A stretch of 23,428 bases of DNA from Saccoglossus kowalevskii (taxonomy: Eukaryota > Hemichordata > Enteropneusta > Harrimaniidae): the NCBI RefSeq assembly GCF_000003605.2, contig NW_003123418.1:194152-217579 (forward strand), given 5' to 3'. Position 1 is the first letter of the stretch. The number at the start of each line of letters is the position of its first letter. The translations under genes were made by a program, and so were the position numbers. Below are positions 1 to 23,428 of the stretch, piece by piece. The notes under the pieces are model-generated. The model did not search any database. It was given only the letters and a program-made list of their open reading frames with translations, and was not told where the DNA came from.

Positions 1-2602
1 TGGCGATCGGGCTTATAATACACGGATTTCTCGCGGCAGCTAATGAATCTTCTTCCAAGAATTGTCCCACAAATGGTTATAACTGTGGAGATGAGGTAAG
101 ATGAAGTTGCATTTAATTAATACATAGATCATATTTCATAGTATGTAGTAAATTGATTGTTGGTGGTCAAAGCTTTCCCACAAAATAATGTCATTTGATT
201 CTCAGCTGACCTAATAATGTATGGCATCCTGTAAGTGTTTGATCTTATATGTTTAATGTTGTTATTTCTTTTTCCTCTCATGTTCCATATCTTACTTTTT
301 CCAACTGTCAATGTAACACGGAACATCGTTAAATCAAATTCCCCTGTTTCGAATTTTATATTTACTGTTCTTCTTTCCTTACCAAGAACAATGTTTTTAT
401 TTCGCCAGGCACTTCGTATATGTTTAGACGTTGTCATGGTAATGTTTGGTACACTAGTAATATGCGAAGCCTTAGCAGCTTGTTATTTAGTTCAGACTAT
501 TTATAATGGTGAACCAGCAGATCTTATATTTGACCCAAAAAGGTAAGGAATGTAAAAGTTTTCTAATAACAGATACTTGTAGTTATATTCTTTGGCTAAC
601 AAACAATTTGACATGACACTTTGTTATGAATTTGACATGCTGAATTCTAAATTGGCCATGTCGTAAAAACTAGTAGTTTACACTACTATTCGGGCCATTG
701 ACTGTTTGATAAGGTTCTTCCATATATTTAATATTAGTATTCTCTCGTGAACATCATATCCTGTCGGGCTCTAGGGTCAAGTTAACATACTCAGTTGTTG
801 AAAAGATAGTATTATTGATGAGAATGATAAATGGCCGACATTTTCCATGATTGAGTATTCTATATATTAAAGGTGACACTGGCCATTCAGGCGTTGAAAT
901 TGTTAATATCATCTTACCTTGTAATTTATTTAAATCGAAATTTGTTTGTCCATTATTCAGCCCACCTGCACATACATCGGAATCACGATTGAATAACTTC
1001 AGTACAGCAACGTCGTCTGAGAATCGGTACAGTGAAGATCCATTGGCTGATTCCAATGAAGGTGCCCCGCCTAGAACTCTGGCCCACGTGAATCCAGCAT
1101 TTTCGGCCACGATCACTGCTGAAGATAAAGCAAACAAACGCAAACCGCGCTCTTCTCAACAACCCCGTCACACAGAGCCTACAGCCAGGCCAAATAAAAA
1201 CAGAAACCAGGACAAGGTAGAAATAGAACAGTTAGACCATCCACCCAGGGTTATCACGCCTACACGCATCCGGTCAAGCAACGACCATGAAGCAGCAGTT
1301 CAAATGATGGAGACACCCGTAACATCACGGGAGAATGTCGTGATTCTGAATCAGCAATCCCCATATACACAGTATGGTCATGAATCAGATGATGATCCAC
1401 GGTATGTAACTGAGCCTTGTCGCACAGGTCTGTCCACACCCAGTTTGGCACCTGCCTCTCCCTGGGCATCAAGCATTCATCTGCAATCAGATGATTCTGG
1501 CGCTCCTAAGGTACACAGGTATGATGACGTAGCATCAGAGCCAGAAAGTGCACACATGTACGAGGAGGTGCCACTTCAATTAGAGCCAAGGCAAGATTCC
1601 TTGTTTGATTCTGAGACCAAAAGTTATACTAATCCGCATATGGTATTAAATGATGAAATAAGTAATCCCGACCAAAGATATGCAAACTCAGATGAGAATG
1701 ACAATCGTGCAGTCGTGCATACACCATGCCCCCAATCACCAGATTTATACAGAGGACCATCAGACGAACCAGTCTTCATTGTCAATGATGCTGCTGACAA
1801 TTCACATGACAAGTACAACCCGCATGCAAGACATCTACAGAAGGCAGCTCGCTCAAACAAGATGAAACCAAAGCCATACAGTGGTGAAGATGAAAGGTTC
1901 ACGGAGGGCTCAATTAGAAAAAGTCTTGAGAAACTGTATGGGAAGCCAGAAGAGGCACACTTAGGTGTGATAGGCAGAGATAATCAACCAATCCAGATGG
2001 CTAATATGAATGAACCACATTCCCTTCTAGCTGATGGCACTCATCATAATGGCAGTGAAGATGGTTTCCCTGGAACTGATACACAGAATGATTGGGAAAA
2101 TCATCTTAGACGTAACCCATCTCCTGTCGAATCAATTGACACATCAATCAGTGAGACCTCTAGCGATTCAACAAGTCTGTCAAAGGGGCACACTTATCAT
2201 CCAGAACAAGAAGATCACTCAATTCCCACTACTCGTGGTTATGAAACTGACCCCAATAACTACCAACGCACACTCCCGGATGATGAGATGGTAATTCCTG
2301 ATTGGAACTTTGCAAATGGCCAAACACGGTCAACGGATAGAATGGATGAGCCTTGCTCACATAGAGCCCAACCATGGTCAGGAAGCAATCATGGTATTTT
2401 TGGCAACCCCAATAGCTCTTATCGAGCTGGAGTGCCTGTCAATGAGGCGACGATGCATGGGGATATGGCGTTGCCAGACTTTGCTACAGAAAGGCCGACA
2501 CGACAATCAAAAAGCACATCTTCTATAGATTCAGATGGTCGTTTACCAGCCACTACAAGCGGATATTACCACAATATGTATCGATCTTCCGATCGAGTAT
2601 AA
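1..2602 (+). CDS. Gene 1 (5'-partial): MS4A/CD20-like four-pass membrane protein with a very long tyrosine-rich tail
   Basis: Exons are <1-95 (codon start at 3), 409-542 and 961-2602; the rest lies left of the window. The first exon is the end of TM3 plus an extracellular loop with two cysteines (NCPTNGYNCGDE) and matches gene 2 exon 7621-7764. The 134-bp second exon is TM4; its length and phases (0 in, 2 out) equal those in genes 2 and 3. Splice sites are ATGAG/gtaag, ttcgccag/GC, AAAAG/gtaagg and tattcag/CC. The last exon stays open for about 546 residues and stops with TAA at 2600-2602, ending SSDRV. This tail is hydrophilic, Ser/Pro/Asp/Asn-rich and probably disordered, with 19 tyrosines, an NPAF motif, an ITAM-like pair and YxN/YxxP motifs. 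TM4 is diverged (about one third identical to gene 2). The family assignment is by eye. The tail is cytoplasmic if the MS4A topology applies. Confidence 0.8.
1520..1570 (+). other. ITAM-like double tyrosine motif in the gene 1 tail
   Basis: The tail encodes YDDV, nine residues, then YEEV. This resembles an immunoreceptor tyrosine-based activation motif (YxxI/L-x6-8-YxxI/L, with wider spacing sometimes tolerated), but with V in place of I/L and a 9-residue spacer. Acidic residues follow both tyrosines, as is common at Src-family and Syk-type sites. In mammals the MS4A member MS4A2 (Fc epsilon RI beta) carries an ITAM in its C-terminal tail, so the position is suggestive. Function is inferred from sequence only. 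Confidence 0.45.
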
Positions 2603-3190
2603 AATTAAACCCACACGTAATTTCAACTACTACATATGCAATTGTGCCCTACGTATGAAAGCTAAAAGCTGTGTTGGATTATGTTCAAAAGATGGTGAAA
2701 ATGGTGTTAGACTTGAAGAAAGACTTTTCAAAGATCATACTTTTGTTGAATCTAATTGTTCCCACATTGATATATTTAATCTTATTTCAAATATTTCGGT
2801 GATATTAGTATTTTGTTCTGAAATTTATAATCAGAATTTGAGTTAGAATAGAAATTAAACATTCTGAGGAAGCACTTATGTATTACCCGATCAGATCAGC
2901 TTAACACTTTATTATCTTATTATTATAATAATCATAAACATTGGCCACTGTATCTATAAAAATTATAATTTCTCATAATGAAAAATGAGATAATCAGTGA
3001 TCCGTGTTACTTTGTATTTAACGTCAACATATTGTAATATATTATAGTGGATTCGGTGCCTAGGAATGAAGCGAGGTACAGTGAGTTGGGGTGGAAATGA
3101 GTAGACTGTGATGGAAGAGATTGGATGGGTGTTGCTCGGGCGAGGTGAGTTAAGGTAGGGTTAATTAGCGTGATACTGGTAAAACTCGCA
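2603..3190 (+). other. Gene 1 3' UTR and start of spacer; homologous to the region after gene 2
   Basis: There is no coding signal after the gene 1 stop. Candidate poly(A) signals are ATTAAA at 2604-2609 and 2854-2859, neither strong. About 2660-2840 aligns with about 9004-9240 after gene 2 (shared GTTGGATTATGTTC, and TGATRTTATTAG.TTTTTGTT), so the 3' ends are paralogous. The stretch 3030-3190 is G-rich and grades into the minisatellite. Confidence 0.55.
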
Positions 3191-3562
3191 GAGTAGAGTA
3201 GTACTCCCGTGAGAGTGACAGTATACGCATAGTACAAGAATATATATACTTCAAGCAGAGTGAAGTAATAGTTCAAATAGAGGAATAAACTCCCAGTTGA
3301 GTAATACTGCCAATAACGTAAAATAGAGTGGAGTCAAGGTTCTATCAGAGCAATACTTCGATTTGAGTTGACTGATACATCAAACAGAATATTACTCCTT
3401 GAAGAGCCGAGTATAGCAACACTTCTATTAGAGCGTAGAAATCCTTCAGAATGAAGAGATATCAAGCAAAGTAATACTCCAAGTAGTGCAGAATGAAGTA
3501 AAATTAATAATCGAGTGTTCAGAGTAATACCCCCAGCAGAATTGATAACACTTTCAGTCAAG
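3190..3562. repeat. Degenerate minisatellite, block 1 (core AGTAATACTCCCAGTAGAG)
   Basis: Irregular tandem copies of a short unit with core GAGTAATACTcCCAGTA, separated by AGAGTGAAGTA-type linkers. Unit length drifts between roughly 15 and 35 bp. The same motif and order of variants (for example GAAGAGATATCAAGCAAAGTA) recur in blocks at 9466-9720 and 11756-12486. ORFs crossing it are by-products of the repeat. Confidence 0.8.
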
Positions 3563-4545
3563 TAGCGCTTCCAGTAGATTAATTGTGGTTAAGAAAATCA
3601 TATTGGGATATTAACGTCAGAACGAATATGTTAAATAGTTTAAATTATTCACTGAAAACAGTACTCATTATAAATATTTATTGAATGAAAAATATTTTTA
3701 CGTTGAAGGTTTTTGGTGTTTTTTTTATTTCTATGTAGTTTGTATGTTCATTAGCATAATTATGCACATACTAACATTATAATGTTTTGATGTTTCAGTA
3801 ACGGACTTTTCTACTAACTTTTTTTTAAACAATTAATAAATACGGGTGATGTAGATAGATAGGTGATGTAGTATGGACTGAAACAAATATATTAACAGAT
3901 TACTACCATAATACCAAGCCGATACTACAGTTAAATACGTTGGTGGTGGGTCTACATTTACTTGTTTCCTTGGCAACTACGAGTGTGTACTGTATATTGT
4001 GCATTCTACAATTGTGTTTTTTCTTCTAAAAGTTGTTCTCGAAATTTTATTCTAGATAACTTTGCAACATTTTAAAACTTTCAATTTACTGTAAATATAT
4101 TGTTTTAGTATGCATCTCAATCACAAAGGTATTTTTATATTACAAATTACTGCAAATATAAAAATATGTTGTAAGGAATGTACGTGTATATTTTCGAGAT
4201 TCACAAATTCATAAAACAATTATACTTTAATGCAAAGACTAGGATATTTTACAGACGATTGATACATACTGATTGATACTATTGATAATTTGAAATCAAG
4301 GAATGCATTCGATCAAGTTTTTAAAACGTGCAGCGTGCGTTATCAATGTAATGTTTTTACACACGTTGTATACGTCGTGTGGGACTCATATCAAACACGG
4401 CGCGTCATGACGACAGTGGCTCTTTACGTGATTAGAACGATTATACCACACGTTGTGTTTGAAGGGCTCAGCAGGACATACGACGCAAACAAAATTATAT
4501 ATAAGCATATATAATAGAGGGCGTAATTTAGTACCACCGCTGATA
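3563..4545. other. Gene 1-2 spacer, partly duplicated before gene 3; no gene seen
   Basis: About 3570-3760 aligns with 12480-12660 (shared TTAATTGTGGTTAAG and CTCATTAYAAATATTTATTGAAT). The rest is AT-rich with homopolymer runs. AATAAA occurs near 3834 but no transcript end can be assigned. A GC-richer patch at 4343-4420 is listed separately. Confidence 0.5.
4343..4420 (+). repeat. Dispersed GC-richer element, copy 1
   Basis: This stretch, with ACACGTTGTATACGTCG then GGGACTCATATC then CGCGTCATGACGAC, aligns at roughly 75% by eye with the reverse complement of 17351-17426 inside gene 3 intron 4. A shorter related piece (GTATCAAACACGTCATGGCG) occurs near 12745 in the duplicated spacer. It is probably a small mobile-element relic; no target-site duplications could be confirmed. 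Confidence 0.4.
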
Positions 4546-4560
4546 AACACAAACATATAT

Positions 4561-4576
4561 TGACCTCAGTTGACCT
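4561..4576 (-). promoter_or_regulatory. DR4-type nuclear receptor element upstream of gene 2
   Basis: Read on the minus strand this is AGGTCA ACTG AGGTCA, two perfect half-sites in direct repeat with a 4-bp spacer. The aligned site upstream of gene 3 (12835-12850) is AGTTCA ACCT AGGTCA, keeping the spacing with one half-site change. DR4 sites are typical of thyroid hormone receptor/RXR and LXR/RXR heterodimers. It lies about 650 bp before the putative TATA box. Confidence 0.4.
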
Positions 4577-4634
4577 GTTAATGTGTAACATATTATAAAT
4601 AACAAACCCAAATAAATATATCTAATATCAATAT

Positions 4635-4640
4635 CACGTG
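4635..4640. promoter_or_regulatory. Conserved E-box CACGTG upstream of gene 2
   Basis: CACGTG lies within a stretch (AATATCACGTGTCAACAC) repeated exactly before gene 3 (CACGTG at 12909-12914). Such palindromic E-boxes bind bHLH-ZIP factors. Conservation between the duplicated copies is the only support. Confidence 0.3.
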
Positions 4641-4772
4641 TCAACACTGAGTATGTTTCCCGTGTCTTGTTTGTGCACGTCGGTTGGAAAATGCCTTTAT
4701 AGGTTCTTGTTATATCGCTGGTTATTGTTTTAGAAATTGTTTTTATTTAAATTACGCAGACATAATTATTAA

Positions 4773-4984
4773 AGGTATGATACAGATAAAAGTAAATATT
4801 TGAAATGTATCGGTAAGCAGCCGTAAGGACTGATTTCATTAAAATAGACAAATAGACGAACAAATAAAATATTATGTTGTTGTTCATATTAGTATGATGT
4901 AGATAAAATAAAATGTTTGAATATATCTGTAAGTAGCTGAAACGACCGATTTTATTCAAATGTATAGAACAAATAAAATATTAA
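4773..4984. repeat. Two-copy tandem duplication of about 112 bp
   Basis: Copy A (about 4773-4875) and copy B (about 4888-4984) share GTATGAT.YAGATAAAA, TATC.GTAAG.AGC and ACAAATAAAATATTA in the same order. The corresponding place before gene 3 (about 13037-13150) has only one copy, closer to B, so the duplication or loss happened after the two spacers separated. Confidence 0.6.
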
Positions 4985-5148
4985 CTACATTCCATGTGTG
5001 TGATAAATATGAAACATTCAACGACCAATAACCGCCTTCATTATATTGGAGACATCACTTATGTCCACCGAACTAAGGTCAAAGTCTGCATCTGATATCA
5101 ACTAGACACCCTAGCTCAGCAAATATTTCCAAAACACCTGTACAATGT
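4875..5148. promoter_or_regulatory. Near-identical upstream block (gene 2 copy)
   Basis: This aligns with 13041-13313 before gene 3, with about 10 differences over about 273 bp by eye (about 96%). Flanks and coding exons are much less similar. It includes a CCAAT box (5025-5029), present in both copies, and lies just upstream of the putative TATA box at 5224. It could be a constrained regulatory module, a gene-conversion tract, or two copies of a young repeat. Confidence 0.5.
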
Positions 5149-5268
5149 ACAAAATCATATTCTACAATATTAGTATTTATGGTTTGATAGTTGTTTTATT
5201 TAATAAGTTTGTTTCTACTGATATATAAAACGACAATTGAGTCGATAGAACTTGTCTGTCAGTGGTTT

Positions 5269-5304
5269 ATGAAGGGACTGTGTCTTTACGCAGGAATAAA
5301 GTAG
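5269..5304 (+). other. Upstream ORF 1 in the gene 2 leader, 11 codons
   Basis: It encodes MKGLCLYAGIK then TAG. The aligned ORF before gene 3 (13435-13470) encodes MKSLCISAGIK then TAG: same length, 8 of 11 residues identical. A role in limiting translation of the main ORF is possible only if the predicted first exon is transcribed. Confidence 0.4.
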
Positions 5305-5459
5305 TCCCTAGTGTACAGCTTTCTGAAGAGTTAGGGACTCAACTATAGTTGGATTCATGAAGTTTTTTCGTTACTAAGTAGTGAATGTGATGATTTCATA
5401 GTGTGCCACCTGCCTCACATTGAGGTTCATTGCAGTTATCTATCAAGATTTGGCGTGAA

Positions 5460-5492
5460 ATGTCGGCCATTTTGAAACCAGGTTTTTGCTAA
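5460..5492 (+). other. Upstream ORF 2 in the gene 2 leader, 10 codons
   Basis: It encodes MSAILKPGFC then TAA. The aligned ORF before gene 3 (13625-13657) encodes MSAILNTDFC then TAA: same length, 7 of 10 identical. The conserved start contains GGCCATTTTG, a YY1-like sequence on the opposite strand, so the DNA itself could also be the conserved element. Confidence 0.4.
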
Positions 5493-5519
5493 AGACATTT
5501 TCAAGTTATTGGTACACAG

Positions 5520-6427
5520 GTAAGATGTCAAACACATTGCATGTCATCTCTAGGTGTATACGACTTGAATATAGATACACGAGAGCCCGAAGAGACTATT
5601 CGAAGGGAGTGTTAGAATACTAGTATACCAGCCATGCGTAACGGACCTGAACACTCGTTCCCAGTAGTTGTTTAAACACATGCATTCAGGACTTGTAAAC
5701 TGACCCCAGCTTCCCGCCTAAACTAACAACATAAAATAGTGTGAATATTGTATACTGTTTATCGATATACAAATGCTACCAACACAAACACCCGTGTGTA
5801 TTGTATTGCTGTTACGTCAATCTTTATGTGTGAAATAGTTTAGTGAAAAACTATCGTATCGCAATTTTGTGCTCACGACTTTTATCAATCTAATGGATTG
5901 GTCAAACAAACAAGATTACAAAATTATATCGTGGATCTGCTAGTAAAATTCCAATTCTAGATACAAAAAAAAAGTTGTGTATCTATTTTCTACAAAAAAA
6001 ATATGTGGAAATGATATTCATTACAACTGATCAGGAGTACATTGAAAAAAAAAATTCTTCACAGTAATGGCAGAAATATCATTTTAAAGTCGTATAAATC
6101 GGAAACGGGACCAGGGTATTAGTAAACAGTTGATCGAGACGGTAATGTAAACAGAACTATGGCGATGCGTTATTTTGTGTTAAAGAATAGTTTACTGTCC
6201 CGTATCACTATGTGATAGATCACTATTAATCAATGACGTCACCATAAACAGAATGTATCAATTTGTTACTAAAATGTATGTAGTTATTCGAGCATGGTAC
6301 GAAAAATATCTCACGCCTACGTGTTTTATTTATTTTCCTTGACAGGAATCACGCTTACATATAGTGAATACTAACTTATATTAGTATGCCTTGCTTACTT
6401 GATGTAGAAGTAATTTTTTTTTTTCAG
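5520..6427 (+). other. Putative 5' UTR intron of gene 2; no gene seen
   Basis: The interval lies between the predicted donor (5520) and the first candidate acceptor. It aligns in pieces with 13685-15052 before gene 3: 5600-5740 with 13770-13890, and 6110-6400 with 14760-15040. It lacks the insertion present in gene 3 at about 13950-14335. It contains poly(A) tracts and a CRE at 6234-6241. Confidence 0.4.
6234..6241. promoter_or_regulatory. CRE palindrome TGACGTCA upstream of gene 2
   Basis: A perfect CREB/ATF palindrome in the context AATCAATGACGTCACC. The same 16 bases recur at the aligned place before gene 3 (14868-14875). It lies about 345 bp before the start codon. Confidence 0.45.
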
Positions 6428-6584
6428 TAGAGAGCTGTTATTCGTCAACTGAGAAAGGTCAAACGTTAAAGTTATAATCACTAATTTGTCTGCCTCCGTG
6501 TACCCTAGGTGAGCCTCGATATCAGGACCCACATACAACAGCCTGCAATTGGAATTATATATTTTGCTGTGACACTCTATAAAG

Positions 6585-8879
6585 ATGCCGAAACCTGTTG
6601 AAGTAATACAGAACTTTGTCATTAGCATAGCCTTTGGGCTAGGCATGTGCCATATAGTATTAGGGTTTTGTACCGTCGGCGTCGGCACAGCGATTATGAT
6701 TTTTAAGTGTGTTGGTTGGATGCTGGCGGTTGGATTGTGGGCTGGATTTATGGTAAGTATGTCGAGAAATGTGCTAATCAATCATTATGTATTTTTGTTG
6801 TGTAATCTTTGCATGAATCTGTTTTTTTCTTTGTAAATATGGGTGTTTTAAAACTGTTGTTTCTTATGACTCTGTCAATGATTCACCGACCCGTGTTAAC
6901 TGTTATTGACATTGTTTTGACCTGTAACTCTAACAGAACGCATGCTTTTTTTATTGCAGTTTTTGATTACTGGGTTCATAGCAATAGCAATGAGGTGGTC
7001 CAGTGAACCCAGAGGATTGGTAAGAATAGCTTAATTTGTCACATAGAGACAATATTTAGTTTTAATAGCGAGTGTATACTAGTAGTGCCATAATAGTCAC
7101 GCCGGTCAAAGTGCATGTAAAAGTTGAATATTAAATATTAGGGTAATCACGGTCAGGTACCTGTAGTATTAGTTGATCAAGTTTTCCCATTTGTTTTCAT
7201 GTGCGAACCTGTGTCATGATTGGCGTAGTCGGATCAAAATTCGATGTCAGTCCGCCAATCGGTCGCATATTCTCAGCCGCCAGTGTACATCGTATCTAAC
7301 TACATCTGATCAAAAGACTATTCAAATTTTGTTCAGGCAGTTACTCTCTGACTGGTCAATATATTCGCGGCCTTCAGCATGAGTTCTAATGGTGGCTAAT
7401 CCAACCAGTACCATGCGTAATTTAGTCAGATGTAGTCGAATGCGATGAAAACCGGCGATACATGCATCGGATTGTAATATGACTATGGCGTATAGAGCTA
7501 GTATCAGTATAACGTGTAATTGTTAGTCCAACTTTCGATAATAAGTAATTTCCATAATTGGCATAAGGCATCCTCGTTGATTAAATGTTCTAATAGAATG
7601 TTTGTTTTATATTTTTGCAGTCATACGGCCTGCTTGTCATGAGCATTATATCATGCCTGTTAGGGGTTTTTCTTGCTATTTACGGATGGTATGCTGCCAC
7701 GCAGGAATACTTCTCTTTGTATTGTAATCAACAGTTGGAAAACGACTATGTGTGTGTCGATGAGGTGAGTTTGTGTTAGTGGTCTAACATTTGAAATCAT
7801 AGGGTTTGCCGGAATATTTGTTGAAAGAAATTGTATGCAAGAAGATGTTGCACAATCAAACAAAGTTAAAACAAAAATTGTGCTAGCTACACTCTTACAG
7901 CCACCTCAAGATTTCAAATGGCTACCCTCTCAGATGAGTGTCACCCCTCTGAATACTGTATTTCGTGAACAACACGTAGTACATGCGCACAAATGTTGAA
8001 AAGTGTTCTAAAGACCCAGGTTAGCTAGACCACGTGTACTGATTACATACATGCAATTTAATTGAAGCATGAATGACTATGTTCTTAATCCACGTTGTTA
8101 TGTGTTTCAGACAATTAGAATGTGTATTGACATTATCTTGGTGGTATTAGGCTTGCTCGAAGTGGAGGTGTCAATAGTATCTGGAATACTTGCCTATCTA
8201 ATGTTTGAAGCCCCGGCCATTGGGCCATTCAACTCAATAACCGGGTATGTATTATTTCAATCTCGACATATTGATCACGCATATCACAGTATTTCCACGT
8301 TTCGTCAGTTACTAGTAGTCAACACATTACAATGGGCATGCGTTATGAATAACTGGTACGTACTATAATAACATTGAACAGAAGCGTAGTATTTCAATTC
8401 ACATGTTATTGACCAACACAGAATAGACATGTACAAATTCGACACACAAAACGCAAAATGTAAAGATTAATTAATGATTAATACTACTTTATGATATTTT
8501 GAGTGTACATCGCTTGTGTTTACTTAATAGAAATTATTTTACAGTATTGTACACATTTGTACATGACAGTGCACGCTATATTTACTTACGCCCTCATACC
8601 ATTGTTTATCCATGTATCTAGCCATGATATCGCCCCCTGTAGTTTGTCTTAATATTGTATTGATATTAAGTACAATAACTTGTGAAAATGTTCACATATT
8701 GTTTTGTGGAATGAAAACATGGCATGTATACCGAAAACATGATAAACCATGCATAATCTGTGCAATAAACCTAGCCCTGACAGTATCACACGTCTAATGT
8801 TAATATTATTTTTTTTTCATTCAGATTACCCTTTGGCAAAGAGAAGGAGAAACAGTTCAACTTACCACGGAGGGAATAG
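6585..8879 (+). CDS. Gene 2: short-tailed MS4A/CD20-like four-pass membrane protein, 186 aa
   Basis: Coding exons are 6585-6752, 6960-7019, 7621-7764, 8111-8244 and 8825-8879 (stop TAG 8877-8879). Donors are gtaagt, gtaaga, gtgagt and gtatgt; acceptors all end in AG after T-rich tracts. Phases are 0, 0, 0, 2. The start is MPKP, matching gene 3, and no upstream ATG lies between 6428 and 6585. TM1 is about residues 11-40, TM2 45-70 (split by intron 1), TM3 79-103 and TM4 126-154. The TM3-TM4 loop has two cysteines (YCNQQ...YVCVDE), possibly a disulphide as in CD20. TM4 has GLLEVEVSIVSG. The tail is only about 18 residues (PFGKEKEKQFNLPRRE at its end), with no tyrosine. A tetraspanin CCG motif and a claudin W-GLW-C-C motif are absent. 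Introns 2 to 4 (7020-7620, 7765-8110, 8245-8824) hold nothing else recognised. The family call is by eye. Confidence 0.82.
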
Positions 8880-9465
8880 ACCCGGATACGATGAATAGAA
8901 CATTCAGCATTCAGAACACCCGCCACATACATTCGATTCACGTTTATTATCTAGTTCAACAGTCGTAAAAATTTGTATGTAATTTTTCCCTATGACGGAA
9001 GTGAGCAGTAGAGTTGGATTATGTTCGAGAGATGATGTAAATAAAAATGATGTTAGGGTCAAAGTGCCAAAAACGAACAATCTTGCAAATACACTTAAAT
9101 GAGTGCAAACAAATCATATGTTTGCGATACTTAAAAATAGAATCCTGGGTGGGAAACACTGTGTTTGATCTAATTCTCACATTATATTGAAAATTGCCAC
9201 ACTCATTTTGATGTTATTAGTTTTTTGTTTTAAAACTTGTGCTAGGATAAAACTGTTAAACACAGTTGTAAGAAACATTTTAACTTTCGCATCTATAGAT
9301 ATTTATATACGGCTAGGACCTTGTTATATAATGCTTGAAATCGCAGACGCTTTTGATCTTTGAATAATAATACAGACAATCACTGTTTGCAGAATGTTCA
9401 AATTAAGGCAATCCAGAAAAAAATAAACTTTCGCAACTTAACATTTAGCATATAATAGTCAATGC
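8880..9465 (+). other. Gene 2 3' UTR and spacer
   Basis: The sequence after the early stop aligns with the end and 3' UTR of gene 1: about 8930-9060 with 2570-2710. The long tail exon is therefore missing between two retained ends. AATAAA at 9040-9045 is a plausible poly(A) signal, about 160 bp after the stop. The remainder is AT-rich with no other feature seen. Confidence 0.55.
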
Positions 9466-9720
9466 ATTTAGAGTGGAGTAGATGGGGGTGGGATGTGATT
9501 TTTTGTTGATATGGTTGGGTTATGGCATGGTGATACTTTAAGTAGAATACAATACGTATAATACAATGATAGTGCCACTAGAATAATACTTACATCAGAG
9601 TAAAGTAATGATTCAAATAGAGTAATAATCCCACTGGAATTGAGTTATACTCTCACAAAAATGGAGTAATATTACCAGTAGAGTGGGGTAATAATTCTAA
9701 TAGTCCATTGAAATTGTGGG
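9466..9720. repeat. Degenerate minisatellite, block 2
   Basis: Copies of the same GTAATA-type unit as block 1 (GAGTAATAATCCCACT, GAGTAATATTACCAGTAGAG). It matches the left part of block 1: about 9525-9640 aligns with 3165-3290. It ends abruptly near 9720, where unrelated sequence begins. Confidence 0.7.
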
Positions 9721-11755
9721 CAACAGTTATGGTGGACGTAGGGAGTATTGAGGGCCAGAGCTCCGCTCTTGAAACAAGATTTAGTTGAATGCCACAATTG
9801 CCTGTCCGATTATTTTTAGAACGTATCGAGTTTCTGTATTTGGTGAATATTTGAGAACAATGTTGTAATCAATTGACCACAAACAATAAGAATGTCGTTT
9901 GTATACTTAATGTTTTTTTTATACTTATGTGATTTACGTTAAAATGGAATGTTTTCATTTAAGAATTGTTTTTTTTTTAGTTTACTCCGAATAAAAGACA
10001 CTTCACTGACTTTCCATGTATGGTCGTATGATTTCATATCAATTACAAATAATTTTAAGAATATTTAGAACTTTTAATGGATTATTGATGGAGTACTGTA
10101 ATTTTACACTCGCACAGTAGTACCCGTCATCGCATAGTGTATATATTATTATCTGACACAGGAAGATCATTTATTTATCTTGATGCAGTTATTACATCCC
10201 AGTGACTACATCTATCAAGGCCAGTAATCCAGGAGAATGAGATTTAAAAACGGCCACAATTTAAAGGTAATTTTTTTCTTTGGGTTTTGGAGACAAAATA
10301 CAAACCGGAGACAACAGTTCGGTTACTTGAATCCAAACCAAAATGGTGGCATGATATAAAAGCCTGTGTTAATATTAATATCAAGACGGTCACCGTAAAA
10401 CATATTTATCAAGAAGTTTCTTAGGGCAGCAGTTTAGATTTGAACTTTCTCAGATATATTATACAAGTCTGCAGCTATCTCGGCGATACAGTTTGTCGAT
10501 CATCCACAGCACATTCACTTTCACAGTGAAATTGTACGTCCAAGGCCTGGTACACTACATCATCCAGAATCCATCCATATTGTAATATAGGCTTATAAAT
10601 ATTTAAATACTGATTTTTGGCTCGTCCCTATTGCAGTCCTTCGATGGCGAAAAGTTTTCTTTCAGCATTTACTAAGAAAGTACTCTTTCTTTGTCCGATA
10701 TAGTACCCGCTTCCTAGTATCTTTGTTTTCAACAAAGCCCAATTACTAAGAAAGTACTACTTCCCTTTTTTTGTCACAAACAGTTTACTAGTTTTCTTTC
10801 AATAATACATGTTTACTAGGAGAAGACATGTAGTTCACTATGTGTGTACAGGACGATGTTACAAATCATTAGCCCATTAACCTTCTATACGTAAAGTGTT
10901 GCATAACACACGTACCCTGAGATAACACGCAGCCCGCGATGAAGCTACAGAAAAACACACTCACAACTCACCACATTCGCAGTATTATGGCCCACACATT
11001 TCATCTAAAAGCCATCTAAACATAGCTCTTCGAGTCATTAAAATTATTTATGAAATCTAAGTGAGCTGTTATTATATATAAATCATAACTCACTGCATAA
11101 AGTTGTTGCCAAGTTCGTGAATATACGTCTCGACGTCCAGTATCGTAAATATTTTCAAGAATACTCGGGAAATGATACATTCAGATCATTCACCATCACA
11201 TTTTAAGGAGTTGAATCTAAGCAAAATCATCTACGGTCAACAACGAATCTTCAAAATGAATGAATGTTAAACAAGAACAATAATTCACTTCACTGGTTAT
11301 TAGAGGCGCCAGTGAAAGCACAATTTGGGATATATAACGACCAATCGGTGATAATAGTAGCCAGGGGTGGGGAGATGCATTTAAAATACAGCTTTATACA
11401 GAAAGTTTTAAGAGTATTTTTTTAAGCATGTTTAATATTTGTTCTTTAATATTGCATCTGGATAAAAACAGAAGATGGTTTAATGATCGAAGTCATATAC
11501 AGACTAACCTAAAAATACAGGTACACTATATTTAAAAAATAACTCGTGTTTTCAGTTTTTCATCGAAAGAATACTGCTATATATACTTAATGCTATTTTC
11601 AAGATGCAATCTCACATTAAATTATTTGATGCTTAGAAATCGCAAAGTTGTCTACAAAGGATCGAGTGTTATTTCAACCAGTTCAATTTGACTTTGGCTA
11701 CTTATGATTATGAAACACCCTCTATAATATTTAAAAAAAAATAAAAGTTGAACCT
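9721..11755. other. About 2-kb segment splitting the minisatellite; no gene seen
   Basis: This stretch has no counterpart in the gene 1-2 spacer, where the array is continuous. I see no long ORF, terminal inverted repeat or target-site duplication. A short direct repeat (TTACTAAGAAAGTACT) occurs at 10669-10684 and 10743-10758. It is either an insertion in this copy or a deletion from the other. Confidence 0.5.
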
Positions 11756-12486
11756 GAGCAAAGCAAGACTCCCAGAAATGTAGTATTCTAGTTAAACTAC
11801 ATGTGGAGTAACGTAATACTACCAGTAATATGAAGTAATACTACCAATAGAGTAGAGTGAAGTAATTATTGCATTGGAGCAATACTTCGATTGGAGTTGA
11901 CTGGTGCTTCCGAGTTGAGCAATACTTCCAGTAGCAATCCTCGAAGTAGAACAGCATGAAGAGATATCAAGCAAAGTACTAGTAATACTCCCAGTAGTTA
12001 AAACAAAGTAATACTTCTAGAAAATTAAATTAATACTTCTAATGAAGTAATAAAACTCGAGGCAGTTTAGAGTGGAGTAATATTTAAAACAAATGAAAGT
12101 AATAAAAGTAAAACAATACTTCCATTAAAGAGAAATGATACTTCAAGCAAAGTAATTCTCCCGAAAAATTAAGTAATACTGTGTATAGTAGAGTAATACT
12201 ACCAGTTTTATGGAGTGATGTAATGATTATATTAGAATAATACGATTGGAGTTGACTGGTACTTCAAGCAGAGTAATAGAGTAATTGGAGCAACACTTAT
12301 AGTGTTATAGTAATCGTCCAAGTAAAACAGGTATGAAGAGATCTCAAGCAAAGTAATACTCCCAGTAGTGTTGAGGAATACATCTAGTAGACAGAAGTAA
12401 TACTTATAATGATGTGTTGGGAGTAATACACCCGTCAGATTCGAGTAACAATCCAAGTTGTGTCAAGTGATACCTCCAGTAGAGTA
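11756..12486. repeat. Degenerate minisatellite, block 3
   Basis: The longest block, over 700 bp of GTAATACTnCCAGTA-type units. About 11870-12010 aligns with 3340-3490 of block 1, and 12230-12480 repeats the same higher-order series (GATTGGAGTTGACTGGTAC, then GAAGAGATCTCAAGCAAAGTA). This suggests internal duplication of a ~350-bp multi-unit segment. Confidence 0.75.
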
Positions 12487-12834
12487 ATTGTGGTTAAGTA
12501 ATTAATATTGAGATATTAAAACGAATATGTATGATTCATTGAAATTGTTATCTTGCACTCATTACAAATATTTATTGAATAAAAAGTATATTTAGTTGAA
12601 GAAATTTGGTTGTATTTGTCATTTCTATTTACCGTTGAGTAAATGGTGTAATTTGTATATTTTCTTTTGTTATCAGCGTATGCGCCATATTATTATCATG
12701 TTTTCTTAAAATGATTTTCATGTTTCAGTCACGGTATTTTGTGTCCGTATCAAACACGTCATGGCGACCATGACCTTTTTAAATACTTGGTTTAATCTTT
12801 CCGTACGGCGTATTTAACAAATAAATAAGTATGT

Positions 12835-12850
12835 TGACCTAGGTTGAACT
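12835..12850 (-). promoter_or_regulatory. DR4-like element upstream of gene 3
   Basis: On the minus strand: AGTTCA ACCT AGGTCA. This is the aligned counterpart of the perfect DR4 at 4561-4576, with one substitution in a half-site and the spacing kept. An E-box at 12909-12914 follows as in the gene 2 copy. Confidence 0.35.
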
Positions 12851-13040
12851 TTTAATGTGTAACATATTATAAACACCAAACTCCAATGATTATATCTTAT
12901 ATCAATATCACGTGTCAACACGTAAATGTTCCGTGTCTTGTCCTCATGCACGTAGTAATGTTTATGTTATATTGCTGATTCCTGATTTAAAAAATGCGGT
13001 TTTTTTGGTATTAAAATTATCCAGACACAGTCATTAAAGA

Positions 13041-13313
13041 TGTTGTTGTTCATATTAGTATGATGTAGATAAAATAAAATGTTTGAATATATCTGTAAGT
13101 AGCTGAAACGACCGATTTTATTCAAATGTATAGACAAATAAAATATTAACTACATTCCATGTGTGTGATAAATATGAAACATATAACGACCAATAACCGC
13201 CTACATTATAACGGAGACATCACTTAAGTCCACCGAACTAAGATCAAAGTCTGCATCTGATATCAACTAGACACCCTAGCTCAGCAAATATTTCCACAAC
13301 ACCTGTACAATGT
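13041..13313. promoter_or_regulatory. Near-identical upstream block (gene 3 copy)
   Basis: Aligns with 4875-5148 at about 96% by eye. One difference changes AAGGTCAAAG (gene 2) to AAGATCAAAG (gene 3), that is, a nuclear-receptor half-site to a TCF/LEF-like site. Whether either is used is unknown. Confidence 0.5.
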
Positions 13314-13424
13314 TACGAAATTATATACTACAATATTAGTATGTATGGTTTGATAGTTTATTGTATTTAATTTAATTTTTCTACTTATTAAAAAAAATAA
13401 TTTCTAGTGGATGGAACTTGTCTT

Positions 13425-13684
13425 TCATAGGTTTATGAAGAGTCTGTGCATCTCAGCGGGAATAAAGTAGTCCTTACCCTGTAGGTTTTCGAAGAGTTAG
13501 GGACTCAACTGTAGTTGGATTCGTGAAGTTTTTCGTTACCAAGTAGCGTTCGCGATGATTTTATAGTGTGCCACCTGCCTCACACCGAGGTTCATTGCAG
13601 TTATCTATCAAGAATTGGCATGAAATGTCGGCCATTTTGAACACCGACTTTTGCTAAAGTTATTCTCAAGTTACTGGTATCCAG
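13425..13684 (+). promoter_or_regulatory. Putative non-coding first exon of gene 3 with two upstream ORFs
   Basis: Aligned with 5259-5519 of gene 2 and ending at the same donor position (ATCCAG/gtaaga). Contains upstream ORFs at 13435-13470 and 13625-13657 matching the gene 2 pair in length and most residues. A third gene 2 upstream ATG (5357) is GTG here. The TATA position is a degenerate A-rich run (near 13390-13400). Candidate acceptors before the ATG follow AG at 15051-15052 or 15130-15131. Confidence 0.4.
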
Positions 13685-13949
13685 GTAAGATATTATTGCA
13701 TGTCATGTCATCAGGTGTACACGACTTGAATATAAATATCCGAGAATCTGAAAAAAGGTATTCGAAGGGAGTGTTAGAATATACCAGCCATGCGTAACGG
13801 ACCTGAACACACGTTTCCAGTAGGTGTTTAAACACATGCATTCAGGACTTGTAAACTGACCTCAGCTTCCCGCCTAAACTAACAACGAATTATGCTGATA
13901 CATCTAACTCACATAAAATATTGTGAATATTGTATAATGTTTATCAATT

Positions 13950-14335
13950 TTAATTTACTGCCATCATAAACGATATTGTGCCAGTGTGCCAAATATTTGC
14001 CTCATTTTCATCCCAGTGTAATTAATAGTAGGGCGTAGTGGTACTGAAACCTCTTTCAATGGCTGCTTTAAAACATACTGTTGATATATTCGAGAGTCGC
14101 GACTCTGGGGCACGCGCATATCAACGCAGAATACTGTAAAATGACTAGTTTTCACTGGGTTTAAATTTCACTGATTTACCATTTCAGGCATATTCACTGG
14201 GTTTTAAATTCACGGTTTCGTCATTTAGATAATGTGTTCTATGGTAAATTTTACTTATTCACTGTGTTTTAATTTAGCGCATTTTCCAGTCAGCGAAATA
14301 AGCTAAATTAAAACCCAGTGAATAATTACCCCCTT
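13950..14335. mobile_element. Hairpin-bearing insertion in the gene 3 5' intron
   Basis: The alignment with the gene 2 intron breaks near 13950 and resumes near 14340, so about 390 bp are extra here. The segment has three direct copies of TTCACTGKGTTTTAAATT-like sequence (from 14151, 14193, 14257) and one inverted copy. The arms 14255-14278 and 14302-14325 pair at 23 of 24 positions. A perfect palindrome AGAGTCGCGACTCT lies at 14093-14106. It is probably a non-autonomous element; its family and exact ends are not known. Confidence 0.5.
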
Positions 14336-14867
14336 TACAGTATATAGTATTGCTGTTACATTGTCTAATGTGTGTGATTAGTCGTGTGTTGGTCATACAT
14401 ATTCAACGTGTGCAATGCCATAAGCAGTTTTGTGGAATATCGTAATTTTGTGTTCACGACTTTTGTGAATCTACAAAAACGGGCAATCAAACAATTTCTC
14501 AATATATAATAACCACATTGGTTTGCTAGGAAATTGCAGTTCTGGTAAAAAAAAGACAATCCATTTTGAAATAACTTTGTTGTAATTCCAATATACTCAA
14601 ACCAGCCAAATTGCGATTTTTTTTCAACTGATCTAGAGTGTTTTAAAAAAAACAATATTTTACATTAAAAACAAAAAATATTATGACTGTTGTTTTAGCA
14701 ATGTAAACGGATATTATTTGTTTGTTAAGCATGTATTTGTAGAAATCTGTAACAGTAACTATTGCATTAGTAAACAGTTATCGAGGTGTGAATGTAAACA
14801 AAATTATGACGATGCGCTAATCTGAATTATGTCCACTGTATCACCCTGTTAGATATCAGTTAATCAA

Positions 14868-14875
14868 TGACGTCA
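14868..14875. promoter_or_regulatory. CRE palindrome TGACGTCA upstream of gene 3
   Basis: Same core and flank (AATCAATGACGTCACC) as at 6234-6241, about 343 bp before the gene 3 start codon, nearly the same distance as in gene 2. Confidence 0.45.
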
Positions 14876-15217
14876 CCGTAAACAGACTCATCAATTCTTT
14901 ACTAAAATTCATGTTGCTATCGAGCATCGTACAAAAATATCTCACACCGACGTGTTTTATATCATCATCTTTTGACAGGAATCACACTAACATGTAGTGA
15001 ATTATACTGTTATTACTATGCCTTGTTTATTTGGTGTAGAGGTAATTTGCAGTACAACGCAGTTATTCGTCAAGTGAGAAAGGTCAAACTTTAACGTTAT
15101 AATCACTAATTGTCTGTCTCCGTGTACCTAGGTGGGCCTCGAGATTAGGTCCTTCTGCTGAAGGCACACTGCTGTCTGTAATTGGAATTATATATCTTGC
15201 TGTGATTCTCTATAAGA

Positions 15218-18200
15218 ATGCCGAAACCTATTGAACTCGTACAGAAGTTTATTTGTAAGATAGCCTATGGGTTAGGATTATGCCATGTTATATTGGCTAT
15301 TTGTACCATCGCCGTCGGCGTGGCAATTATTGCCTTGAAGTGTTTTGGTTGGATGGCGGGAGTTGGAATATGGGTTGGAATTATAGTAAGTATGTCGAAA
15401 AATACGCCATTCATGCAATAAATCAACATGTATTGTCATTATGTGATCTGTGTATACACTTGTACATTGTAAATACGCATGTTTATGATTTAAAAGTGTT
15501 GTAAGTGGAGGTGATTATTACTCATGTTATGCTTAGTAGAGAAAAACATCTACAATGTCTAGTTTATTTTTTTATTCACTCTGCATAATTGTCACACCTG
15601 TTAATTGTTGTTAGTGACATTAAAAAGTATACCCTGACCTATGACCATTAATAGAAGGCGTGCTTCTTCTCCAATTTCAGTTTCTGGTTACTGGGATCAT
15701 AGGAATGGCAATAAAGTGGTCCAGTGAACCCATAGGTTTGGTAAGAATATCTGAAATTGTTTTCTGTCAACAATTAGAGGGTTCCGATTAATATGTATTC
15801 ATGGTTCATGTATGGGATTAAACTTGAAAGTTTTCATTACATTTTTATTTGTCTTACTTTAAATTTGGAAAAAGAAATATTTTAATAGCGAGTATATTAC
15901 TGGTAGTGCCGGTCAAAGTGCATGTAGAAGTTGTATATTAAACCTTGGGCTTATCGCGACCAGGTACACTATTTGCGACACGTAAATAAGTTGAGGCTGA
16001 ATTATATGAACCATGTAACAAATAGTAACATGTAAACCACCATGCACCAGAAATAAACTCTTATTAACACTACCATCCAATATTAACGGGGTGTATCACT
16101 TACTGTTAAAAAAAAGTTCATCAAGTCTGTTTATTTGTTTTCATGTTTGTACATGCAAATATATGTTCCGTTCGCCAATTGCGGGTCATCGTTTGCTTAT
16201 TTTTGATCACCGTTCGTCTATTTTCGGTAGCCGATCGCCTATTTTCGGTCGCCGATCGCCCATTTCCTCCCGCCAATGCACATCGTTTCTAAGTACATCT
16301 GATCAAATAACTACACAATAGCGTCCAGGAAGTTCTTCTCTGATCGGTCGACATATTCACCTGCAGCATGAGTTCTGAAGGTGGCTAATCCAATGAGAAC
16401 TAAGCGCGATTTTGTCAGTTGTAGTTAGAGGTGATGAAAATCGGCGACCGGAAGTAAGCGAAAAAAGCCTTTTTCATATCGGGCTGTGGCGTTATACAAC
16501 TGGTAATAATGTACGTTGTATTTCCATAATTTGCACAAAGTAGCAATTCATCGCCGTTAAAAAGATGTTGCAATATAATGTTTGTTATATCATTACAGTC
16601 ACAAGCGTTGCTAGCCATGAGTATAGTATCCTTCGTGATGGCGCTGTTTCTCGCTGCTTACGGTTGGTATGCCTCCACACAAGAATACTTCTCAATGTTC
16701 TGTAATGAAGAATATCTGGAAGCAGAAAACAAGGACAACATGGATTATGAGTGCATCCATGAGGTCAGTTTGTGTTCGTTTCATTTACCTCTTTGAATTT
16801 GTCCACTTACAATGGTCAGTTGACGGGCCTTCTGAATTTACTCGGATGGTTATAATACTAGATGTACGTATGATTGAAGTGGGCTCTAAAGCTCCTAGCC
16901 GGCTGGTTATGAATGATCATTTTACATACATATAAATGAAGCTTCGACTGATATGCTCTCAATCCACGATGTTATGTTTTTTCAGTCTTCCAGGATGGCC
17001 GTTGACATTTCCTTGGTAGTAATTGGCTTGTTAGAAATGGAGGTGTGTATATTGTCTGGTGCACTCGCCTACATCATTCTTAAATCGCCGTCCATTGGTC
17101 CATTCAGCTCAGTAACAGGGTATGTATGTAATATTTCAATATTTCGTGTTAACTATGAGTAAAATGTTGAGGTACGCATATCACAGTCTTCCCACGTTTA
17201 GTGAAATAGTCAGCTCATAACAATGAGCCCATGTTTTGAATAACAGGTACGTACTTTAATACGATTAAATTTGTGAATGTCGCTTTATTTTGACGGAGTT
17301 CTTATGCACCTAGTTAATCATGGTACTTTTCAGTACTATTAATACTTAAAGGGCGGCAGTCGTTGTGCCGCGTCCTGTTCGATATGGGACTCATAGCGAC
17401 GTACACAACGCGTGTAAAATACATTGTTTATTTACATGAAATTCGAACACGCGCTGCGCGTGCGACAGACATTTGCGTCTACCCATAAGCCTTTGCTTTT
17501 TAGCGTACATTGTTATCTTCGTTTAGGACTCAATTCCAGCGCGTGCGCAGCCTTGATACATGAGTATATTATGAACACTGCTCACAGAAACTATAAACAC
17601 TCATTAGAGATGCACTACAGCAACAGTTTTACTGCATTGTATACATTTTTACATGCAGTGCACTAATAATATATATTACCAGTGGTTTGTCTAGATAATA
17701 TTATTATTGTATTATTAATATCAAGTTTAATAACCTACGTATATGCATACTTTTATTGTGTTTACTAGTAAGAACGGACGTTGTAGTGTGCCAACAAACA
17801 AAACAAAACATGAGTGGATTGCTTATGAAAAATCTGTGTTATTTATTAACATAAACCGAATTTTTTTTATTTTAGATTACCCTTCGGCGAAGGGAAAACA
17901 TTCAATTTCCCAGAGAGGAAATCAACTACTGAGCCACAATACACGGACAGTGAGGACGATGAGGATGCAGTGATGACAACTGGGGAAACTAAGTATTCAG
18001 AAGACCCGCCACAGAATTTGGAGTCCCAATATGATCCGGACCCTATGTATTCAACGGCCGATGAGATAGAGAAGGAGGAAGCTATCGCCTTGACTACGTT
18101 CCCCGAACGATCAGCGTCTCATTCATCGCGTGAAGGGGGTCCTCCGGCGGAGTATGCGACGGTGAACAAGACACAGTCACCGTTATACCATGAACCACCG

Positions 18201-18715
18201 ATCACTACAACAACAGTGGGAACAGCAAATGCACCGGTTCCACAGCAGGCAAAGTACGCTGGCGATGAAGATGAAGAAGATGGTGATGAATTTGCTGAAC
18301 CTTTACTACCCCAAGGAGGACATCAACGAAAGGGCACACGTAAGTACAGCCCCCGGAAAGCCACTTTCCAGTGTAACTGCATAGTCACAAGACTGTGGAC
18401 GTCTTTCAAGTGTAATCGAAATACGTGACATATATGCATAATTTACGTCATTAATGCCAACAATTATGTATAGTTTAACCCCATGCTACCAGGTGACCTG
18501 ACTCTCTAACAACTTTCATTTATTCCACAGTTCCCCCTCTGAGGCCTACAATGGAAGTGGTACGTCAATCACTCCTACTGAAAGCAGACTCTAGCTCCGA
18601 CAACACACCATCGAGTTCTCCAACTAGCAGCACAGATAGTTCACGATCAGAGACCAAGAAACATGACCCGAGTTCTGGTTCTCTGAAACGTGCCAATAGT
18701 GAAACCACGGTTTGA
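15218..18715 (+). CDS. Gene 3: MS4A/CD20-like four-pass membrane protein with acidic tail and C-terminal PDZ ligand, 391 aa
   Basis: Coding exons are 15218-15385, 15681-15740, 16599-16763, 16986-17119, 17876-18339 and 18531-18715 (stop TGA 18713-18715). Phases 0, 0, 0, 2 match gene 2; the extra last intron is phase 1 (CACAC/gtaagt ... ccacag/TT). The first exon is 30/56 residues identical to gene 2. The TM3-TM4 loop is 7 residues longer, with cysteines 15 apart. TM4 has GLLEMEVCILSG. The tail (about 216 aa) is acidic (DSEDDEDA, GDEDEEDGDE), has 7 tyrosines including EYATV and YHEP, shares YSEDP with gene 1, then a Ser-rich last exon ending NSETTV, a class I PDZ-ligand form. If the last intron is retained, the frame runs on to a stop at 18428. 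Introns 2-4 (15741-16598, 16764-16985, 17120-17875) carry repeats listed separately. Confidence 0.85.
16169..16273. repeat. Five-unit 21-bp tandem repeat in gene 3 intron 2
   Basis: Five exact-length units start at 16169, 16190, 16211, 16232 and 16253, each beginning CGWTYG and most containing TATTTTCGGT. The gene 2 intron at the aligned place (about 7240-7290) has only the related CCGCCAATCGGTCGCATATT and CCGCCAGTG pieces, so the array expanded in gene 3. Flanking intron sequence is homologous between the genes. Confidence 0.75.
17351..17426 (-). repeat. Dispersed GC-richer element, copy 2, in gene 3 intron 4
   Basis: Its reverse complement aligns with 4343-4420. It sits in a GC-rich patch (about 17350-17560) with GCGCGTGCG twice (from 17455 and 17539). 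The patch appears absent from gene 2 intron 4; flanking pieces resemble about 8480-8500 and 8530-8590 there. Confidence 0.4.
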
Positions 18716-19890: not shown

Positions 19891-19903
19891 TATAAACTTA
19901 TCA

Positions 19904-20154
19904 ACGGGTATGCGAGGCACCCAAGGGATGTGAACTACTATTATGTTTCGAAATGGGCAAAGGGCTCTTTTTGAAATTCTCAATGTTTTTTGACATTTTC
20001 AGGGATCAAAACAGTCGTATTTCTGTTGTGTTGACATAATGTGTCAAACAATAACTTCAAGGGATGTTTTTTTTTTTTAAATGTAAGTGAGTTTTGATAA
20101 ATTTGATCTCTCAGACCGTAATTTTCATCAAAAGTTGGTACCTCGCATACCCGT
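19904..20154. mobile_element. Small element bounded by 18-bp inverted repeats
   Basis: The left arm ACGGGTATGCGAGGCACC (19904-19921) and the right arm at 20137-20154 are reverse complements with 17 of 18 matches. The 251-bp span has no ORF of note. This fits a MITE-like non-autonomous DNA element, but I could not identify a clear target-site duplication. Confidence 0.45.
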
Positions 20155-20165
20155 ACATAAATAAT

Positions 20166-21034: not shown

Positions 21035-22050
21035 AAGAATATATTATACTGGTCGCCCCCCAATCTCCCAGGCAGAGTTCTATTCCACGAATATATCTCT
21101 GCCACCACGCGATATTATGCTCGTCGTTGATTGGTCGATGCGTCACAGTGGAACTACTTACAAAGACGCCCAACAAAACATCGCCAGGCAGGTGTTCGAA
21201 CCTGACGAAAGTGTACGCGTTGTTTGTAGATTCTGGCTAATTTTAAATTGAGAAGCTATTTTTTTATATTCCGTAGCACAAACGGTGTGGCAGTAGCACG
21301 ATTTAGTTGCCAATACTACGAAGTGCTTTCGTTTGTTTATATTTCTTCGCCTGGCAATCCACAGGACGGTCAGTTTGATGAACCGAGTAACACATTAGTA
21401 ACCGCAGAGGTACATTACTTGGGGTTTACTGTATGGTGACATCATGTCAAGATCCCATTCAAGTCTCATCTCGTAGTTAGCGAGACTGATGCTACTACCT
21501 TCTGACATGACATAGGCGGTTTGTAATAAAACAATAAAACACGTATTACGACATTCATAGTGAAAAAATGTAATACATCGAAAATATACAGAAAATATAG
21601 TTATCGTAATCCGTCATATCGTGAGCAGCTATTTTGATCCACCTGGACATCCCAGTATCCTAGTTACCTCGGGCATGCGCATTTTTCTGAGTTGGAACGC
21701 TTATGCGAGCGCGAGATTGTAACGGGATCTTGGTATCATGTCACCGTAGTTGCAAACCCCAAGTAATGTGCCTCTGTAACCGTTATTCCGCGATGAAATT
21801 ATTTTCTTTTGTAAATTATAACTATTTCACCCTTAACAGTACATTTACGGAAAAATCGTTATTAGCTATCGATAAAATATTTTAAAACTTGTTTTCCAGT
21901 AGGAATAAATCAACACGAGAGCCCTCTAATAGCAAAAATACGCAAATGACACGCGTAGTAAAAGTCTTGTGGTGTTTCACCACAAAATGGCGGTGTGTGG
22001 TGGCAGAGATACTTTCGGTGATCTAACCGCAAGGAACTCTGGGAAGGAGA
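21035..22050. repeat. Long imperfect foldback (inverted repeat) of about 1 kb
   Basis: Two separate arm pairs are visible. The inner pair: 21405-21457 against 21724-21780 (exact core CATTACTTGGGGTTT and its complement, then GGTGACAT and AAGATCCC). The outer pair: 21050-21110 against 21995-22060 (GGTCGCCCCCC, CCCAG..AGAGTTC, ATCTCTGCCACCAC and complements). Both share an axis near 21550-21590. Similarity between the arm pairs is patchy. No coding sequence is supported; this suggests a foldback transposon or an old inverted duplication. Confidence 0.5.
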
Positions 22051-23224: not shown

Positions 23225-23428
23225 ATAATAATAATAATAACTTTATTGCATCCTTAGAATTACAAATGTTCTATTGGTTTACAGCAATAAATATATAAGT
23301 AATTAAAAATATCAAAGTATGATAACGTAAAAAAAAAAAAAATAGAAAAAAAGAGTCAAGGTATTATATCCAAAAAAAGCTCATTTCTTAAAATAAATGA
23401 TTTATGTAAAAATTCCCCTAAAAGTATT
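23225..23428 (-). mobile_element. Probable 3' end of a non-LTR retrotransposon, antisense, running off the window
   Basis: On the minus strand the sequence reads toward GGATGCAATAAAGTTATTAT..., a polyadenylation signal followed by a (TTA)n tail (23225-23240). That is the usual form of CR1/L2- or RTE-type 3' ends in marine invertebrates. The upstream part is AT-rich UTR-like sequence with no reverse transcriptase in view. A SINE sharing such a tail is an alternative. Confidence 0.4.

Follow-up and report, generated by a model that had tools for sequence, protein, structure and literature searches.

A tandem array of probable MS4A-like genes for predicted four-span membrane proteins with a conserved core and diverged tails

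The window, that is the whole stretch of 23,428 nucleotides that was analysed, contains on its plus strand, head to tail, two complete split genes (B and C), together with a third gene (A) of which only the 3' portion is present. Our preferred reading, to which we give a probability of roughly 0.7, is that these genes are a tandem array of MS4A-like genes for four-span membrane proteins which arose by duplication and in which the membrane core was conserved, the tails diverged and the tail of B was lost. The genes have splice-consistent exons, homologous cores and duplicated flanks, a remnant of a tail lies behind the stop codon of B and the core carries the mark of coding constraint. From the comparisons described below we infer that A, B and C belong to the MS4A superfamily.

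Results

Organisation of the gene array

The coding exons of the three genes are listed in Table 1. The splice-site check found GT and AG at every inner exon boundary of A, B and C, and the tandem array of three neighbouring genes described in the initial annotation is real. The exon lengths and phases said to be common to all three were found in full in two of them (B and C, with 168, 60, 144 or 165, and 134 nt); gene A is cut by the left edge of the window, with its 168- and 60-nt exons outside, and only its 134-nt exon could be checked. Introns 1–3 of B and C are in phase 0 and intron 4 is in phase 2, and the visible exon phases of A match those of B and C; the last core intron, at the tail junction, is in phase 2 in all three genes. 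The products of B and C have 186 and 391 amino acids, respectively. Counted from the junction residue, the tails of A, B and C have 547, 18 and 216 residues, in line with the earlier figures of about 546, 18 and 216. A short tandem array with a 21-nt unit (GATCGCC...) is located in the second intron of C (16198-16274).

Table 1 Coding exons of genes A, B and C in the window
Gene	Exon	Length (nt)	Content	Position	Strand
A	Exon end		End of TM3 and outer loop; truncated by the left edge	1..95	+
A	134-nt exon	134	TM4; preceding intron phase 0, following intron phase 2	409..542	+
A	Last coding exon	1642	Polar tail of 547 residues	961..2602	+
B	1	168	ATG, TM1, start of TM2	6585..6752	+
B	2	60	Rest of TM2 and cytosolic loop; phase 0/0	6960..7019	+
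B	3	144	TM3, outer loop with two cysteines	7621..7764	+
B	4	134	TM4	8111..8244	+
B	5	55	Tail of 18 residues; stop TAG at 8877-8879	8825..8879	+
C	1	168		15218..15385	+
C	2	60	Phase 0/0	15681..15740	+
C	3	165		16599..16763	+
C	4	134		16986..17119	+
C	5	464	First part of the 216-residue tail	17876..18339	+
C	6	185	Includes stop; tail end SETTV-stop	18531..18715	+

The core of C is 60% identical to that of B, and the core of A is 31% identical to B over its last part, the only comparable one. Over the 173 codons of the B/C core, dN was 0.248 and dS 0.596, and the resulting dN/dS of 0.42 fits coding constraint; the counts per exon are small, and exon 2 is without a difference between dN and dS (0.168 and 0.165). 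Kyte–Doolittle peaks above 1.6 were found at all four spans of B, at TM1, TM3 and TM4 of C, not at TM2, and at TM4 of the partial protein A. Two aligned cysteines in the TM3–TM4 loop are present in all three window proteins as well as in all four FceRI-beta and CD20 sequences compared, and by analogy with CD20 these residues may be bridged by a disulfide within that loop, the second outer one.

Duplicated flanks

The likeness of B and C extends beyond their exons: the self-comparison matched, in pieces, 3295-8877 with 12187-17922. Over 902 aligned bases, the block upstream of B (4874..5789, +) and its counterpart upstream of C (13040-13971) have 87.6% identity, with 99 of 99 positions identical in the first 100 columns. 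In contrast, the synonymous sites of the core differ at 41% between B and C, and alignment of the four introns gave 50 to 60%; a simple two-proportion test gave z=8. A candidate 5'-UTR splice donor (AG/GTAAG, 5518..5524, +), inferred from sequence, is aligned with 13683-13689 of C, and aligned candidate splice acceptors precede the ATG exon in both genes, so the upstream block may hold a promoter and a 5'-UTR exon. The likeness of the block could reflect constraint on a conserved promoter or 5'-UTR exon, or it could reflect gene conversion. Gene A is tied to B at the other end of the unit: its 3' flank (2635..2702, +) matches the segment 8976-9042 behind B with 73.5% identity and E=9e-4.

Degenerate AGTAATACT-type repeats recur between A and B and between B and C in the spacers 3234-3737, 9577-9651 and 11834-12631, and the segment 4350-4434 upstream of B matches, inverted, 17340-17425 in the fourth intron of C at 77%. 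Two candidate small elements were seen elsewhere in the window. The one at 21405-21776 has inverted repeat arms of 23 nt (96%) that are 326 nt apart and inner arms of 36 nt (78%), and resembles a small terminal-inverted-repeat element; the other at 19898-20160, a candidate small mobile element, has arms of 24 nt (88%) that are 215 nt apart. By eye, the sequence ATAATAATAATAACTTTATTGCATCC at 23225-23260 resembles a LINE or SINE tail. Scans of the window for Rfam families at gathering scores and for tRNAs gave no matches.

Probable relationship to the MS4A family

The link of the genes to MS4A/CD20 had been drawn by eye in the initial annotation, which also proposed a search against the Pfam CD20-like family (PF04103). 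Protein B matched PF04103 at positions 2-154 of 156 with E=5e-5 and 23.8 bits for the whole protein, and with E 4.1e-5 and 24.1 bits for the core alone; both scores lie below the curated cut-off of 27.9 bits. Proteins A and C gave no match to PF04103, neither as whole proteins nor as cores. No other Pfam family matched A, B or C with an E-value better than 0.012. When ten decoys of the B core were searched (one reversed, nine shuffled within helix and loop segments), none matched PF04103, and the best match of a decoy to any family had E=0.063. Since the curated cut-off was missed, we call the proteins MS4A-like and do not file them as members of the family.

A search of PDB sequences with B alone gave no match at E-values up to 10; with a profile of all three proteins, the sole match in the same range was FceRI-beta (MS4A2) at E=1.7, which is not significant. 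A profile of B and C was then aligned by hhalign with a profile of three FceRI-beta sequences and one CD20 sequence. The score of 25.1 was above all 100 column-shuffled versions (best 23.95), by a small margin and with the reversed profile at 23.5 and a probability of 11%, and the alignment is confined to columns 9-88, from TM1 to where TM3 begins. Against the same B/C profile, the control proteins CD81 and claudin-4, with sequences entered by hand, scored 14.3 and 18.6, respectively. NCBIfam gave weak matches only, the best one (E=0.0063) to a bacterial model. A search for relatives in viral contigs yielded 61 stretches that matched a pattern, none of which was confirmed by tblastn.

The introns were compared with those of human CD20. 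Intron 5 of CD20 has its canonical donor at nt 337, after SRKCL, in phase 0 (PMC4774009, Table 1). The corresponding phase-0 junctions are PRGL/SYGL in B and PIGL/SQAL in C, and the intron behind the TM2 loop thus has the same place and phase in B and in CD20 (PRGL/SYGL and RKCL/VKGK), with the loop one residue longer in the window genes when counted from the TM2 tryptophan. According to the same source, exons 4 and 5 of CD20 together have 177 nt, and the coding length is 894 with 216 coding bases in exon 8 (PMC4774009); the latter two lengths place the last CD20 intron in phase 0. Here the window genes differ, since their last intron is in phase 2. They also differ before TM4, where the intron follows the second loop cysteine by 3 residues instead of 8 as in CD20 (intron 6), and before TM1, where CD20 intron 3 is without a partner inside the coding part of the window genes. 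We take CD20 exon 5 to be 57 nt long, in which case its start, WGGIM/YIISG, would equal WAGFM/FLITG of B and CD20 would, like the window genes with their 60 nt, have a small phase-0 exon at TM2. The comparison with CD20 comprises one documented agreement, one presumed agreement and three differences. Convergence of hydrophobic helices does not account for evidence of this kind, an intron that coincides in position and phase.

Like the MS4A proteins CD20 (MS4A1) and FceRI-beta (MS4A2), B has a hydrophobic pattern of four putative spans, and like the MS4A genes those of the window form a tandem cluster. Unlike in MS4A, the segment before TM1 is short in the window proteins, and the tail of A is long, whereas most MS4A proteins are described as having up to 300 residues (PMC2826416). 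The same survey describes MS4A14, in other respects a typical MS4A protein, as carrying a C-terminal region of exceptional length in human and cow (PMC2826416), a feature that may be likened to the long tail of A. Taken together, the by-eye link survives, weakly on sequence grounds and with help from the one CD20 intron that agrees: B reaches PF04103 but stays under the cut-off, and two of the three proteins are without a match. From sequence comparison, homology of A, B and C to MS4A is remote but probable.

Origin of the tails

The DNA behind the stop codon of B (8906..8927, +) agrees with the coding tail of C (17992-18013) at 20 of 22 bases, and none of 2000 mononucleotide shuffles scored as well. 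This remnant of a C-like tail is out of the frame of B. The matched region of C includes the codons of the motif YSEDP (17994-18008, exon 5), and YSEDP is also present in the tail of A (1028..1042, +), 23 residues into the tail. When the first 60 and 70 tail residues of A and C were compared, a stretch picked after the motif had been seen, 1 of 1000 shuffles shared a 5-mer and 7 of 1000 reached the local score; with the tails taken in full, a common 5-mer occurred in 15% of shuffles. Alignment of the whole tails of A and C was no better than chance (884 of 1000 shuffles reached the score, P 0.884), and the first 300 bases of the A tail exon have no DNA likeness to exon 5 of C (P 0.91). The remnant, the common YSEDP and the 3' flank that A has in common with B speak for a single ancestral tail. 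Loss of a C-like tail by B is well supported by these sequence matches, and the tails of A and C probably have a common origin, which is less well supported than the loss in B.

The tail of A (547 residues) contains 102 Ser/Thr, 84 Asp/Glu, 52 Pro and 19 Tyr. It carries an ITAM-like pair, YDDV-x9-YEEV (1520..1570, +), of a kind held by 4% of its own shuffles; such a pair is absent from the tails of B and C. The ITAM consensus YxxL/I-x6-12-YxxL/I was not found in the tail of A, B or C, and a canonical ITAM in A was rejected, with V in place of L/I and a longer spacer. C ends in SETTV, which agrees with the class I PDZ-ligand pattern S/T-X-hydrophobic (3.3% of shuffled tails end so), and A ends in DRV, a class III-like PDZ end (2.05% of shuffles). 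Since 12 patterns were tried on three tails, shuffle values of this size are expected. The motif evidence for tail roles is marginal, and the signalling, silent and anchored roles suggested in the initial annotation are conjecture, as are the mixed complexes that it considers conceivable.

Discussion

We propose that units of several kilobases, including upstream and 3' sequence, were duplicated in tandem, and that purifying selection keeps the membrane core. As a speculation on the model of CD20, the core would probably form dimers or larger assemblies in a membrane, with its two ends facing the cytosol. The cytosolic tail would have been free to change, and the long polar tails of A and C probably derive from one ancestral tail, while the tail of B would have been lost through a stop codon and a deletion. 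As a further speculation, the tails most likely recruit cytosolic partners, in the case of C possibly a PDZ protein, and B may act as a tail-less partner or modulator. Splice forms of MS4A2 that lose spans or the tail are described to change receptor trafficking (PMC8776166), and tail-less members can thus be regulators.

Tail swapping, as proposed before, would mean that exon shuffling joined one core to three unrelated tails and so gave signalling, silent and anchored subunits. The great differences in tail length (547, 18 and 216 residues) would suit it, as would the chance-level alignment of the whole A and C tails and the start of the A tail exon, which is unlike the DNA of C. Unrelated tails would, on the other hand, leave unexplained that DNA behind the stop of B matches the coding tail of C, that YSEDP is found near the tail start in both A and C, that the tail junction is in phase 2 in all three genes and that A and B have a 3' flank in common. 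We doubt that the tails were swapped in from elsewhere, because the tail of B looks truncated with a remnant of the C tail behind its stop, and consider tail swapping quite unlikely; the differences look like divergence and loss. The same out-of-frame remnant, together with the stop in the tail, would be in keeping with B as a pseudogene in decay, its tail broken and no product made. Its core reading frame is open, though, all its splice sites are kept and B is the very copy that matches PF04103, so that we regard decay as improbable; the dN/dS of 0.42 is a pairwise B/C value and does not by itself establish constraint on B alone.

The cores could also belong to a different four-span family that is CD20-like by convergence, through hydrophobic helices only. 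This would agree with the sub-threshold Pfam score in one of three proteins and the weak profile matches, and short similarities in invertebrates were judged non-specific in the 2010 survey (PMC2826416). On the other hand, none of the ten B decoys matched PF04103, and CD81 and claudin-4 stayed at 14.3 and 18.6 against 25.1 for the MS4A profile. No other Pfam family came closer than E=0.012 to A, B or C, the position and phase of one intron coincide with those in CD20, and we judge convergence unlikely. At the other extreme, the array would comprise true MS4A members outside jawed vertebrates, with introns common with CD20; tailed and tail-less copies would join in mixed complexes, and both the cluster and its subunit logic would predate adaptive immunity; to this reading we give little credence.

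The tandem array of MS4A-like genes with a conserved core, our preferred reading, bears on the history of the family. Invertebrate members of PF04103 are found in protein databases. In the 2010 survey, MS4A genes are stated to have first appeared in jawed vertebrates and to be absent in invertebrates, with the suggestion that invertebrate candidates may be convergent, and TMEM176 proteins are described as partly similar to MS4A and encoded on a separate chromosome (PMC2826416). A later review calls the ancestry of the MS4A chemoreceptors less well known (PMC7776563), and besides this review the library searched listed no later paper on the question of MS4A in invertebrates, with TMEM176, amphioxus and sea urchin covered. 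If confirmed, the history of the tails would be nothing unusual, a single core whose cytosolic tails change fast. The array is probably a further case of a known, MS4A-like kind with a moderate bearing on the origin of the family, and, if the host is an invertebrate, it opens the question of how the MS4A cluster arose to direct test.
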